Position numbers and translations under genes: made by a program
In this document: piece after piece, positions 37,009 to 45,704 of the stretch
Position numbering within the stretch: position 1 is the stretch's first letter
How the letters are laid out: each line of letters opens with the position of its first letter
The notes under the pieces: model-generated
The model's database searches: none
What the model saw: the letters and a program-made list of their open reading frames with translations, nothing else
Told to the model about the DNA's origin: nothing
Origin: Parvularcula sp. IMCC14364
Lineage (GTDB): Bacteria > Pseudomonadota > Alphaproteobacteria > Caulobacterales > Parvularculaceae
Assembly: GCF_030758415.1 (NCBI RefSeq)
Contig: NZ_CP132334.1
Span: forward strand, 2,554,001 to 2,618,000
Length of the DNA: 64,000 bases
Direction of reading: 5' to 3'

Positions 37009-38079
37009 ATGTCCGATTCCAGTTCCCGTGACTCCCGCTTCAACGCGCTCAAAACTGCGCTGGAACAACGCGTTCTGGTGCTCGATGGGGCCGCTGGCAC
37101 CTTCATTCAGAATTACAAGCTGACGGAAGAAGATTTTCGCGGCGACTGCTTCAAGGACTGGCAGAAAGAGTTGCGCGGCAATAACGACCTGTTGCAGTTG
37201 ACCCGTCCCGACATCATTCGCGACATGCACCGCGCCTATCTGGAAGCCGGGGCCGATATTATTGAGACCAACACATTCTCATCCACGACCATTGCCCAGG
37301 CGGATTACGCCATGGAAGACATCGCGCGCGATATGAATTTCGAAGGCGCAAAACTCGCGCGTGCCGCAGCAGATGAAGTTGCCACGCAAGAAAAGCCGCG
37401 TTTTGTTGCCGGGGCAATCGGACCGACAAACCGGGCCGCCTCTCTTTCACCGGATGTAAATGACCCCGGTGCCCGCAATGTAGACTTTGATGAACTGAAG
37501 ACAGCGTACAGAGAGCAAATAGATGCCCTCGCAGAAGGTGGCGTAGACCTGTTTCTGCTTGAAACGATTACCGATACCGTGAACGCAAAGGCCGCCATTT
37601 TCGCGCTTGAGGAGAGCAATGCAGAGACTGGTGCCAATCTGCCCCTGATCATATCTGTCATGATCCCGGACCAGTCCGGCCGCACCCTGTCCGGCCAGAC
37701 GCCCGAAGCATTCTGGACCTCGGTGCGTCACGCCAACCCGCTGGCCATTGGCGTTAATTGCTCGCTTGGTCCTGATCTGATGCGCCCTTATGTAGATGAA
37801 CTCTCCCGCATCGCTGACACTTATGTCTCGGCTTATCCCAATGCAGGCCTGCCTAACACGATGGGTGATTATGACGAGACTCCAGAAAGCATGAGCGTCC
37901 ATATCAGTGAGTGGCTGGAAAGCGGCCTGCTGAACATCATCGGCGGGTGCTGTGGCACAACACCGGCGCATATCGCAGCATTTGCCAAAGCTGCGACCGG
38001 CGTGATGCCGCGCAAGCCCGCACAACCAAATATTGCCCTGGCCTTGAGTGGCCTTGAGCCAATGCGCCTTGCGGGATAA
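37009..38079 (+). CDS. metH1: Homocysteine S-methyltransferase module of split methionine synthase
   Basis: 356-aa protein equal to the N-terminal homocysteine-binding barrel of MetH. Motifs: [67 protein letters not shown] and GGCCGTTP; the last two supply the three zinc-binding cysteines. E. coli MetH continues into folate, cobalamin and activation domains. In many Alphaproteobacteria MetH is split in two genes, usually adjacent; here the next gene is an antiporter, so the cobalamin half must be elsewhere or replaced. Preceded by the 28-bp palindrome, which suggests specific control. Confidence 0.88.
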
Positions 38080-38176: not shown

Positions 38177-40159
38177 ATGCCCGATACCGGCCCCATATTC
38201 TTCACGCTTGCCCTGTTTGCCGCAGGTGGCATCCTGGTCGGTGCGGCCGGCAGCCGTCTGGGCGCGCCCATGCTGCTCATCTTCCTGATGGCGGGTATGC
38301 TGGCAGGGCGTGAAGGACCAGGCGGCATTGAATTTGATCAGTCTACACTTGCATATTTTCTTGGCAGTGCTGCCATCGCTGTCATTTTGTTTGAAGGGGG
38401 CCTGCGCACCAAACCGCGCATCCTGAAACAGGGGCTGCGCCCCGGCGTCATGCTTGCCGTACCCGGAACGGTGCTGACTGCCTTCATTGTCGCCCCCGTT
38501 GCCATGCTGCTGTTTGACATGAGTTTCATAAGCGCATTGCTGCTTGGGGCCATTGTTTCATCTACCGATGCGGCGGCTGTCTTTGCCCTGGCAGCAAGTG
38601 GTATCAAACTGCCCGAAAAAGTCGTCTCCACACTGGAGGTGGAAAGCGGCTTTAACGACCCGATTGCCATTATTCTGGTGATCGGTCTTGTGGAAACGCT
38701 CGCTGGCCAACCCCTGCAATCCTGGGAATGGGTGGTACAACCGGTATATATGCTCGCGGCGGGAGCCCTTGTCGGCTATGGTGTCGGGCTTCTGTCTGCT
38801 GATCTTTTCCGGCATGTGAAGTTACCTGTCGGCCTGAAAGCCATCCTGACGATTGCCTTGGGTCTGCTGGCTTTTGGCCTTGCGGACCTGTTGAGCGGCA
38901 GCGGCTTTCTGGCGATTTACCTGACAGGCGTCACCCTTGCCTGGCGCGCGCCCGTGGTTGCAGAAGATGCCGCGCCGGGCGTCGACGGACTTGCCTGGCT
39001 GGCCCAGACTGGCCTGTTCCTGATGCTGGGCCTTTACGTTACCCCCTCGCATATCGCTGTCGTGGCCCTGCCTGCTGCGATCACCGCAATTGCTCTTTTC
39101 GCGCTTGCGCGCCCGGCGGCCAGCTTCCTTTTGTTACTGCCCTTCAAGTTTACAGTGCCTGAAAAGGGGTTCATCGCCTGGACAGGCTTGCGCGGTGCCA
39201 CACCCGTTTTTCTTGGTATCCTGCCATTGCTTGGCGGCGCGCCCAATGCCAGTCTTTATATCTCCGTAGCCCTTGCCGTCGTTCTGGTTTCTCTCGTGGT
39301 ACAGGGCTGGACCGCGCCCCTTGTGGCCCGGCAACTGCAATTGTGTGAGGCAACAGCGCCGCCTGATCGGGGAGAGGTTTTCTCGCGTCTCGGTTCCATG
39401 AGCGTGGTGCTGCTGGCAGGCGTCTGGTTTGCTGTCGCCAATTCCCCTGTACGGAACATTTTCATGGAACCGGAGAGCAGCTCGGAGCTGATCGCCATGG
39501 TTGGCGCTGGCGAGATGCTTGGCGCAGGTGAAGACAGTCTCATCGCCACCTTCCCGGCAGACTTTTCAGACCTGTCAGTTGCAGACCGACAGCCCGTCTA
39601 TGCAGATGTGGTCGCCCTTGCCATGACGCAGGTCAATCGTGAGATTGCTGCTGAACGCGAAGAGTTGCTCGCCATGCTGAACAAGGAGGCTGACGGAACC
39701 GCCCTGTCACTGGAAGAACAGACACGCCGCGATATCCTCGCCCGTAAATACAAGGGCCGCTATGAAGAGACCGGCGACCTCCTTGCCCGGATCAACCAGA
39801 TCCCGCCCTCACTGGCGATTTCCCAGTCTGTTCTGGCAACCGGCTGGGGCGGCGCAGACGGCCTGATGCAACGCAACGCCATTTTTGGCGGTCGCGCTGG
39901 GGCAAATTATGAAACCATTATAGATGCCGCACGCGATTATGCTGACCTGTTGAACTCTCACCCGGTTTTTTCAGAATTCCGTACACAAAGCGCTGAAATG
40001 ACAGACGGTGATAAAGACGATGCGTCAGGCGCCGCGCTTGCACAATATGTGGGTGGCTATATTTCCGGTAACGCCGATGAATACATCAACGCGATCAATG
40101 AACTGATCCGCGCCAATGACCTCAACCGCTATGATATCGCCGATCCCGGCACAACCTGA
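38177..40159 (+). CDS. CPA1-type cation/proton antiporter fused to a Bax/glucosaminidase-like domain
   Basis: 660-aa fusion. Residues about 1-395 form a K+(Na+)/H+ antiporter of about 11-12 helices (LFAAGGILVGAAGSRLGAP, AIVSSTDAAAVFALA and VESGFNDPIAIIL, the ion-binding Asp motifs). An extra helix at about 408-425 (SVVLLAGVWFAVANSP) leads to a soluble C-terminal domain (about 470-655) that aligns by eye with E. coli Bax: EIAAEREELLAML, LLARINQIPPSLAISQSVLA, GWGGADGLMQRNAIFG, NSHPVFSEFR and GNADEYINAINELI. Bax has AAAESGWG; here the aligned Glu is Ala554 (LATGWG), so lytic activity is probably lost. The frame is open throughout, with no sign of a merged stop. Confidence 0.82.
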   Translation: MPDTGPIFFTLALFAAGGILVGAAGSRLGAPMLLIFLMAGMLAGREGPGGIEFDQSTLAYFLGSAAIAVILFEGGLRTKPRILKQGLRPGVMLAVPGTVLTAFIVAPVAMLLFDMSFISALLLGAIVSSTDAAAVFALAASGIKLPEKVVSTLEVESGFNDPIAIILVIGLVETLAGQPLQSWEWVVQPVYMLAAGALVGYGVGLLSADLFRHVKLPVGLKAILTIALGLLAFGLADLLSGSGFLAIYLTGVTLAWRAPVVAEDAAPGVDGLAWLAQTGLFLMLGLYVTPSHIAVVALPAAITAIALFALARPAASFLLLLPFKFTVPEKGFIAWTGLRGATPVFLGILPLLGGAPNASLYISVALAVVLVSLVVQGWTAPLVARQLQLCEATAPPDRGEVFSRLGSMSVVLLAGVWFAVANSPVRNIFMEPESSSELIAMVGAGEMLGAGEDSLIATFPADFSDLSVADRQPVYADVVALAMTQVNREIAAEREELLAMLNKEADGTALSLEEQTRRDILARKYKGRYEETGDLLARINQIPPSLAISQSVLATGWGGADGLMQRNAIFGGRAGANYETIIDAARDYADLLNSHPVFSEFRTQSAEMTDGDKDDASGAALAQYVGGYISGNADEYINAINELIRANDLNRYDIADPGTT

Positions 40160-43301: not shown

Positions 43302-45704
43302 ATGACGATAAGCAAAACACTTCGCTCTACCCTGAAGCTCGACATCGCTGACAGCGAGCCGGATCAGGCTGCCCACTTGGCCGCTGAGACGGCCCTACCC
43401 ATGCCGGAAACAGACATGCTGGTTGCCGAGCCCTATGAAAGGGACAGCTTGAGCGGGATCGCCCTTCCTTCCGTCAGAATGGCGATTGTTCTTGGCGCGG
43501 TGCTCTTTGTCAGCCTCGCTCTGGTCCTGTTCACCAAGGCCGCGCAGGAGAGCGATTCCCGGCGGATTGAGACAGAACTCACCCAGAATGCCATCGCCAC
43601 AAAGTCAGCCGATATGGTCAGCGCGCTGCGTACGAACGCTGCCATGACGGGCACCGAAGTCACGACAACACAGGTCAAGCGTTTGCTCACAGCCAACGCT
43701 GTGGGTGAGCATACTGCCGTCTATGACATTTCAGCGGACCGGACTTCCTATATCGCTGCCGGAGCCGTTGAAGGTTACGTGGTGCGTCCGACCAATCTGG
43801 AACGCCTTAACCTGTCCGCATCCGGCGTCGCCCTTTTTGACCGTGAAGCCATTGGCATTGCGCCGTTTGGCAAGGTCCTTGCGACATGGAGACCCATGGA
43901 AGATGGCCGTGTCATCCTGGCGCTGTCGCCGGCTGCTGATATACATGACCGCGTACCCGTCTGGACGCTGTACGGCCTTGCATTCCTGGCTATCTGCCTG
44001 ATCGCCGGATCCATGGTGCTGGCTTTCCTGAGACAGGCGCGGGCTATCCAAAATGCCGGTCTGGGGCTGCGTCAGCTTGGTCAGGAGCTTGAGCAGTTCA
44101 GTGAAGCAGGCTGCGGCCATTGGTCTTACGACAAGATTACCGCACAACTGACCCTGCCGGCCAGCCTGATGTCAGAGCTTGGGTTTGAACACACCCCGCG
44201 CATTTGCGCCCTGCGCGAGGCCACTGCCATTGTGCACCCAAAAGATGCGCGCGGGGCGATTGCCCTGTGGTCCGGCAATGAGACGCAAAGCGCGCGGCAG
44301 TTCCGCCTTAGAACAGCAGAGAACGACTGGCAGTGGGTGCTGGCCAGTGTTGACGCACAGGAGTCCGGTGCTGGCGGCCTGATCCTGCCGATCGGGCAGA
44401 CAGCCCTCGGCGATGACCGACTGACGCAGGTTGAAGCACGGATGAAGGATGCCATTGAGAGTATTCCAGAAGCCTTCCTGCTCTGGGACGAACAGGGGCG
44501 CCTGACCGCCTGGAACGGCAAATTCTGTAACATCTGCCGCATTCCGCCGACACGCCTGACAACCGGCATGACCGTCAGCATGATTGCAGAAGCAAGCCCT
44601 GATCCATCTATCAGCCGACTGATCACGCGCAATTTCTCACCACCTGTAAATGGCAGCGAACAGTCCGTTGAGGTTGAGTTGCCGGGTAACCGCTGGGGAC
44701 ATGTGGCCCGCAGGCGCACTGCCGAAAATGGCTGGGTCTGCATCATCACGAATGTCACTGACATGAAGCGCCGCGCCAAAGCGCAGAAACGCAAAGAGCG
44801 CGAACTGGAAATGACCGTGGAGCGTCTCGAGCAGTCACAGGTCGAGCTGCGCGATGCTGTCGAGAGTTACGAACGCGAGAAGCTGCGCGCGGAAGAAGCC
44901 AACCGCTCCAAGTCAGAGTTTCTGGCAAATATGAGTCACGAGCTGCGCACTCCCCTCAATGCCATTAACGGCTTTTCAGAAGTCATGCAGTCAGAACTGT
45001 ACGGCGCACTGGGGCATGCGAAGTATGCAGAATATGTCAACGACATACTGCAAAGTGGCCGTCACCTGCTGGCGCTGATTGATGATGTGCTCGATATGTC
45101 AAAAATCGAAGCTGGCCGCATGGAACTGGAAATTGGCCCGGTAGACCTCGAGCGTATCCTGCAGGAAGGATTGCGACTGGTAGAGCCGCAGACGCGCGCC
45201 CAGGACATCACCCTGACAGCCTCGATCTCGAGCCTGCCATCTGTCTGGGCAGATTCCCGTGCGACCAAACAGGTGTTTATCAACCTGCTTTCCAATGCCG
45301 TAAAATTCACGCAGGAAGGCGGCTCTGTCAGCATCACCGCGCAGGCTGACCTTGATTCAATTACCGTACTGATAGCTGACACAGGCATTGGCATTGAAAA
45401 GGACCGCTTGCCAAAATTGGGCGAACCCTTTGAGTTGCTGGGTGATCATCTGTCAAAGGCCAATCGTGGCTCCGGCCTTGGCCTCGCATTGTGTAAATCC
45501 CTGATGGAGCTGCAGCATGGTATCCTGGCGCTTGCCAGCGAAGCCAACCGCGGCACGGTTGCCGCCTTCACCCTGCCGCGCCGTTCCGGCATCACTGTCA
45601 GCCTGCCCGCGTTGCTGGACGGCAAGACACAGGTGTTGACGAAGGAGCCAACGCCCTCCCCCGGCATCAGCCTCGCTGTTGCCAACGATACCGCAGCTGA
45701 ATAA
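43302..45704 (+). CDS. PAS-containing sensor histidine kinase, PleC/PdhS-like
   Basis: 800-aa membrane kinase. A cytoplasmic N-terminus, helix at about 59-79, an extracytoplasmic region of ~145 residues, helix at about 225-245, two PAS-like regions (the second from about 385: IESIPEAFLLWDEQGRLTAW), a coiled coil, HisKA with SHELRTPLNAINGFSEVM (phosphoacceptor His546), and HATPase_c (NLLSNAVKF, ADTGIGIE, GSGLGLALCKSL). The stretch GHAKYAEYVNDILQSGRHLL matches PleC/PdhS kinases that act on DivK in Alphaproteobacteria. Whether it is the true PleC orthologue is not settled. No adjacent regulator. Confidence 0.8.
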   Translation: MTISKTLRSTLKLDIADSEPDQAAHLAAETALPMPETDMLVAEPYERDSLSGIALPSVRMAIVLGAVLFVSLALVLFTKAAQESDSRRIETELTQNAIATKSADMVSALRTNAAMTGTEVTTTQVKRLLTANAVGEHTAVYDISADRTSYIAAGAVEGYVVRPTNLERLNLSASGVALFDREAIGIAPFGKVLATWRPMEDGRVILALSPAADIHDRVPVWTLYGLAFLAICLIAGSMVLAFLRQARAIQNAGLGLRQLGQELEQFSEAGCGHWSYDKITAQLTLPASLMSELGFEHTPRICALREATAIVHPKDARGAIALWSGNETQSARQFRLRTAENDWQWVLASVDAQESGAGGLILPIGQTALGDDRLTQVEARMKDAIESIPEAFLLWDEQGRLTAWNGKFCNICRIPPTRLTTGMTVSMIAEASPDPSISRLITRNFSPPVNGSEQSVEVELPGNRWGHVARRRTAENGWVCIITNVTDMKRRAKAQKRKERELEMTVERLEQSQVELRDAVESYEREKLRAEEANRSKSEFLANMSHELRTPLNAINGFSEVMQSELYGALGHAKYAEYVNDILQSGRHLLALIDDVLDMSKIEAGRMELEIGPVDLERILQEGLRLVEPQTRAQDITLTASISSLPSVWADSRATKQVFINLLSNAVKFTQEGGSVSITAQADLDSITVLIADTGIGIEKDRLPKLGEPFELLGDHLSKANRGSGLGLALCKSLMELQHGILALASEANRGTVAAFTLPRRSGITVSLPALLDGKTQVLTKEPTPSPGISLAVANDTAAE

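Follow-up and report, generated by a model that had tools for sequence, protein, structure and literature searches.

A cation/proton antiporter joined in one gene to a Bax-like domain that lacks the catalytic glutamate

Introduction

Why would a relative of the cell wall glucosaminidases be joined to an ion antiporter, and what could such a domain do there without the residue that cuts? The question is raised by a gene in a 64,000-nucleotide stretch of DNA (hereafter the window, positions 2554001-2618000), taken from a genome of 3,417,277 bases in one contig, where this gene is the sole match to the Glucosaminidase family PF01832. To our knowledge, the way in which turgor and the state of the wall are signalled to ion transport in bacteria is a largely open field. 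A sequence-only reading of the window had described one uninterrupted frame encoding an antiporter, an extra membrane helix and a Bax-like domain, and this layout is seen in the frame at 38177-40159, whose features are as follows.

38177..40159, + strand: whole fusion gene, 660 codons plus stop, with an ATG start and no internal stop (one open reading frame)
38237..39325, + strand: CPA1 cation/proton antiporter domain, residues 21-383 (Pfam and NCBIfam matches)
39377..39451, + strand: extra hydrophobic helix C-terminal to the antiporter, about residues 401-425, with a hydrophobic 19-mer
39551..40141, + strand: Bax-like region, proposed to be a periplasmic pseudo-glucosaminidase, residues 459-655
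39785..40120, + strand: GH73 / PF01832 match, residues 537-648
39836..39838, + strand: codon of Ala554, the position of the GH73 general acid/base Glu, aligned to the Bax-type Glu
39890..39913, + strand: shortened segment after NAIFG, at the expected site of the GH73 beta-hairpin, residues 572-579

None of the papers listed in literature searches on antiporter-glucosaminidase or antiporter-Bax fusions, wall-binding antiporters and inactive GH73 proteins, searches that took in few subscription papers, names such a fusion, in agreement with the earlier statement that no system of this kind had been described. A search for Bax together with FlgJ and peptidoglycan found no paper. As far as these searches show, both halves are of known kinds, and what is new is that they are paired and that loss of the catalytic Glu is fixed.

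The fusion in other genomes

Among 299 genomes sampled from the order, which we take to be that of Caulobacter, the fusion was present in 24, distributed over three family groups (f5, 14 genomes; f1, nine; f2, one), and the domain pair therefore occurs in genomes other than our own. The 24 frames are 649-765 aa long and align to the 660-aa fusion through both domains. Because all of them share the same one-frame architecture without stops, an assembly artefact is ruled out. At closer range the whole fusion was found in 8 of 61 near relatives, namely all six genomes of the genus (our own included) and two of another genus, and the C-terminal profile matched 9 of the 62 genomes in the family sample. 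Identity is 77-88% for three named relatives, which are Aquisalinus and Parvularculaceae metagenome-assembled genomes.

Within the order, the profile of the fused domain matched the 24 fusions only, the best six or nine candidates per genome being scored, so that a stand-alone Bax could be missed. The order may retain the Bax-type domain only in its fused, inactive form. Outside the order, partial samples were searched with the same profile, and matches were obtained in 169 of 385 genomes of the class and 103 of 299 genomes of the phylum; the order sample, as compared with the class, gave no stand-alone Bax-type domain. Besides our own genome, the matches listed from the class and the phylum include one frame of fusion length (750 aa; locus L037 of genome G095), and this candidate was rejected since its first 420 residues look Pro/Ala-rich and not like an antiporter. 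On plasmids, 60 records match the fusion and none of them covers 80% of the query, and the viral contigs searched with the fused-domain profile gave no match.

The antiporter half used as query (E ≤ 1e-40), again with the best six or nine candidates scored in each genome, gave 62 matches in 61 of the 299 genomes of the order, of which the 24 fused ones are 49-100% identical to the query and the 38 unfused ones 37-46%. One genome (G493) is the only one with both a fusion and an unfused close antiporter, the latter in a 606-aa frame.

The antiporter half

The N-terminal part of the fusion is a CPA1 antiporter of the YcgO/NhaP2 type (PRK05326). Residues 21-383 match Na_H_Exchanger (PF00999) at 155.4 bits against a Pfam cut-off of 26.2, and the same family was matched in all eight fusions of alignment A1. 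In NCBIfam, the potassium/proton antiporter model NF003715 was matched at 412.2 bits (cut-off, 309) and NF003716 exactly at its cut-off (355 for both), and the fusion missed the cut-off of NF003714 (328.5 against 471). An ND pair and a GLRGA segment are part of the CPA1 transport core, and NDP (residues 160-162) and GLRGA (residues 337-341) are present in 24 of 24 fusions. The fused antiporter is probably active in transport.

The whole antiporter core is common to the fusion and to YcgO, CvrA and NhaP2, and proteins annotated as cvrA on E. coli plasmids are 40.6% identical to the fusion over residues 11-386. The two kinds differ in what follows the core. According to the YcgO study (PMC11808508), the C-terminal part of YcgO consists of an RCK plus a CorC region, whereas the fusion has a membrane helix and the Bax-like domain, and the only families matched in it are those of the antiporter and Glucosaminidase. 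This C-terminal region is variable among unfused relatives as well. Of seven closely related unfused antiporters, four (L015-L018) carry a tail that looks RCK/CorC-like by eye and three (L013, L014 and L019) stop after the antiporter; many unfused relatives in the order are short frames of 396-451 aa, with no room for an RCK/CorC region. This indicates that the RCK/CorC region is not universal and that the antiporter as such needs no tail.

The Bax-like domain

In the C-terminal half, PF01832 was matched over residues 537-648 at 32.2 bits, barely above the Pfam cut-off of 30.2, and at E ≤ 0.01 it was found in seven of the eight fusions of alignment A1, one being unmatched. The NCBIfam model for protein bax (NF007681) aligned residues 469-645 to its positions 74-264 at 32.3 bits, which does not reach the cut-off of 193 for the Bax equivalog. 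In the reverse direction, a profile of the fused domains matches Bax-type proteins with E values down to 6.1e-51, and chains of FlgJ in the PDB were among its matches. The fusion can accordingly be aligned with E. coli-type Bax along residues 469-645, and it has PF01832 in common with Bax, FlgJ, LytB and other GH73 glucosaminidases; it differs from them by Ala or Ser in place of the catalytic Glu, by a mostly shortened hairpin segment and by its junction to an antiporter. One of the FlgJ chains, 3k3t, reads LATGWG where chain 3vwo reads LETGWG, the same exchange as in the fusions. We take 3k3t to be the E185A mutant of Sphingomonas FlgJ, the exchange having been made in the laboratory, and unlike the fused domain it is a single-domain wall enzyme.

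The fold was examined with AlphaFold2. A first model, built from four close sequences, had a mean pLDDT of 47.6 and was set aside. The second had a mean pLDDT of 89.0 and a pTM of 0.86, and contains helices only and no strand; since 42 of the 46 sequences in its alignment were viral GH73-type proteins, it is not independent of the family assignment. On whether the C-terminal part has a lysozyme-like, glucosaminidase fold, the Foldseek results were mixed. By probability, the best among the 50 best PDB rows was a GH73 structure, 4qdn (0.57; rank 16, E = 1.8), with LytB (4q2w) at 0.28, and against the viral library 11 rows (ranks 1-10 and 12) reached a probability of 1.00. Eight of these 11 carry names, of which six are muramidase, N acetylmuramidase or peptidoglycan hydrolase, one is a PlyB like endolysin and one is ORF39. 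Neither the PDB nor the viral library gave a match at E ≤ 0.001 (best E in the latter, 3.4e-03). Viral contigs were also seen to hold at least 537 stretches encoding Bax-type GH73 relatives, of which 80 loci were kept.

Loss of catalytic residues

The Glu of Bax-type proteins aligns to residue 554 of the fusion in a gap-free motif, and the Ala reported earlier at this position was found within QSVLATGWGG. Replacement of the Glu extends to all fusions: 23 have Ala at residue 554 and one (L053; G368:C3) has Ser, and none of the 24 has Glu or any other acid there. By comparison, Glu occupies the equivalent position in all 52 distinct Bax-type domains that are not fused to an antiporter. The latter set was derived from 63 loci by removal of 11 repeats and still includes several near-copies; it is a sample, matches having been found in 169 genomes of the class and 103 of the phylum.

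The general acid/base of FlgJ is a Glu on its central helix; another Glu is located on a mobile beta-hairpin, and the hairpin carboxylate is dispensable in some GH73 enzymes (PMC4752226). In LytB, exchange of the essential Glu for Ala abolished activity and left the CD spectrum unchanged (PMC4633669). The hairpin side is affected in the fusions too. The distance from G571 to residue 579 has a median of 9 residues (range, 5-19) in the 24 fusions versus 25 (11-32) in the 52 unfused domains, and two fusions, with 17 and 19 residues after FG, overlap the lengths of the unfused segment. Much of the beta-hairpin segment, which has the second catalytic residue in GH73 enzymes, is missing in most fusions. 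With the acid/base Glu lost and, in most members, much of the hairpin gone, the fused domain should not cut glycan, and hairpin loss may weaken glycan binding as well.

Could the domain, on the periplasmic side, still hydrolyse its substrate by means of another acid? Column 587 is acidic in 79% of fusions versus 13% of Bax, and column 634 in 75% versus 21%, and the dispensability of the hairpin carboxylate in some GH73 enzymes would leave room for such a change. Neither column is invariant, however, and apart from positions 540 and 653, which are acidic in Bax too, no column is acidic in more than 79% of fusions. Together with the absence of an acid at 554 in every fusion and the inactivation of LytB by the corresponding exchange, this makes hydrolysis by a substitute acid the least probable of the readings considered here.

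Apart from the catalytic Glu and the hairpin segment, the fusions retain most of the Bax core. Conservation is 88-100% in fusions and unfused domains alike at N487, R494, Q550, G556, W557, G558, N567, G571, R602, Y628 and Y636, and five of these (W557, G558, N567, G571 and Y636) reach 100% in the fusions. Six columns (480, 518, 554, 555, 598 and 630) are conserved within each set with a residue that differs between the sets.

Topology

The study of YcgO (PMC11808508) gives an N-terminal membrane domain with 13 segments in a predicted model, a probably periplasmic N-terminus and a cytoplasmic C-terminal region, through the CorC part of which PtsN controls the protein; this two-domain picture is backed by Cys accessibility. 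If the fused antiporter has the same topology, one added crossing places the Bax-like domain in the periplasm. The extra membrane helix described earlier at residues 408-425 was recovered slightly upstream, as a 19-residue hydrophobic stretch at about 401-419, and a hydrophobic 19-mer follows the antiporter in all 24 fusions (mean Kyte-Doolittle, 1.36-2.16). In unfused Bax-type frames a hydrophobic helix was present upstream of the domain in 47 of 52 cases, which fits an exported domain and suggests that the added helix may be the old anchor of Bax. By analogy with YcgO, the Bax-like domain is thus likely to be on the periplasmic side.

The alternative is that the extra stretch does not cross the membrane, or that the number of segments is different, and that the domain is cytoplasmic. 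The counts of Lys and Arg around the added helix are mixed and leave the topology unsettled (more before than after it in 12 of 24 fusions, equal in seven and fewer in five), and the cytoplasmic tail of the relative occupies the same place in the sequence. Since the hydrophobic 19-mer is present in every fusion and the related Bax-type frames mostly look exported or anchored, we consider a cytoplasmic domain highly improbable.

Selection and origin

The Bax-like domain is under purifying selection. In 10 pairs, dN/dS of residues 536-655 was 0.077-0.216, values that are rough because dS was below 1 in only three of the pairs, and dN/dS of residues 1-394 was 0.013-0.063, indicating that the antiporter evolves more slowly. 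These values bear on the possibility that the domain is a relic, an accidental fusion of Bax that lost its activity and is now drifting. Its faster evolution and the fact that both catalytic elements are affected are what a relic would show, but the low dN/dS, the 24 intact copies across three family groups and the fixation of Ala or Ser at 554 next to five fully conserved positions argue against drift, and we regard a relic as very unlikely.

A tree of the C-terminal domains separates the fused ones from the 52 unfused ones by a single branch (SH-aLRT, 100), and the former are thus one clade. When the antiporter halves of 24 fused and 12 unfused proteins were placed in a tree, the fused halves did not fall on one side of a branch and two changes are counted; long branches meet in this tree, and its starred branches are compatible with one fused clade. 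Of 21 splits, 16 are found with both halves; among the supported splits (17 and 15), 11 are common and two pairs conflict.

Gene neighbourhood

Neighbouring genes were clustered for 21 loci, comprising that of the 660-aa fusion and 20 relatives. In the window, the genes flanking the fusion include the following.

37009-38079: homocysteine S-methyltransferase gene (PF02574), upstream, stand-alone, 356 aa
40528-43161: M1 aminopeptidase, downstream
43302-45704: PAS histidine kinase, downstream

The first of these may, as a guess, belong to a methionine synthase that is split into separate genes. Genes upstream of the 660-aa fusion are common to one locus of the same genus (L213), and shared neighbours were confined to such closer relatives except for one cluster, judged by eye to be an ABC-transporter ATPase, which occurs at 10 of the 21 loci, in nine of them within the five listed downstream genes. 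This ATPase-like gene lies downstream on the other strand at L217, L219-L221, L223-L225, L228 and L230, and its recurrence may reflect no more than shared gene order. No wall gene was recognised by eye among the neighbours of the 21 loci.

Discussion

The loss of the cutting residue in every relative examined suggests that the fused domain does not cut the cell wall and serves to hold or sense it. In our main reading, to which we give a probability of about one half, the protein exchanges ions for protons and carries on its periplasmic side a non-lytic pseudo-glucosaminidase; by binding either the wall or a protein of the wall, this domain would anchor the antiporter or regulate transport. The antiporter would be a K+ (or Na+)/H+ exchanger of the CPA1 YcgO/NhaP2 type whose core, as in YcgO, would end on the cytoplasmic side, and the added helix would cross the membrane again. 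The pseudo-glucosaminidase would derive from a Bax-type protein, with the conserved framework of the groove mostly intact, and would grip peptidoglycan or a wall-associated protein. In this way a periplasmic input would take the position that a cytoplasmic RCK/CorC-like tail has in some relatives. Absence of hydrolysis and the periplasmic location are probable in our view; the ligand of the domain and control of transport are hypothetical parts of the reading.

The domain may instead contact proteins. CPA antiporters are dimers, and the pseudo-Bax could be a periplasmic module for self-assembly or protein contact, joining the antiporter dimer or a partner and not touching glycan, with which the shortened hairpin side of the cleft in most fusions would agree. 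The positions of the groove framework are nevertheless still conserved in the fusions. This rival is serious because the endolysin PlyCYU multimerises through its glucosaminidase domain, although that domain is not dead and is reported to become active once the other catalytic domain has acted (PMC12442389). On balance, we consider a contact module unlikely, though the strongest competitor of the wall-binding antiporter.

A more specific form of the wall-binding antiporter is a wall-gated ion valve, in which the domain grips glycan and passes the distance or tension between membrane and wall via the helix to a K+/H+ antiporter; this is speculative and, in our estimate, rather improbable. MotB, ExbD/TolR and FtsEX-EnvC embody the same idea of control as proposed for the fusion: the membrane protein is governed from the periplasm, by a part in contact with the wall or with one of its enzymes. 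The likeness is one of idea only, as the folds and the membrane proteins are unlike those of the fusion.

Across three family groups, in 24 of the genomes sampled, a wall hydrolase seems to have become a permanent component of an ion exchanger, one that no longer cuts. The fusion would give the GH73 family a clear natural pseudo-enzyme. It would also unite wall contact and ion/proton exchange in a single gene, in which the two can be studied jointly. If the wall-gated valve were true, the protein would be a single-protein gauge of turgor or wall integrity that adjusts K+ and pH.
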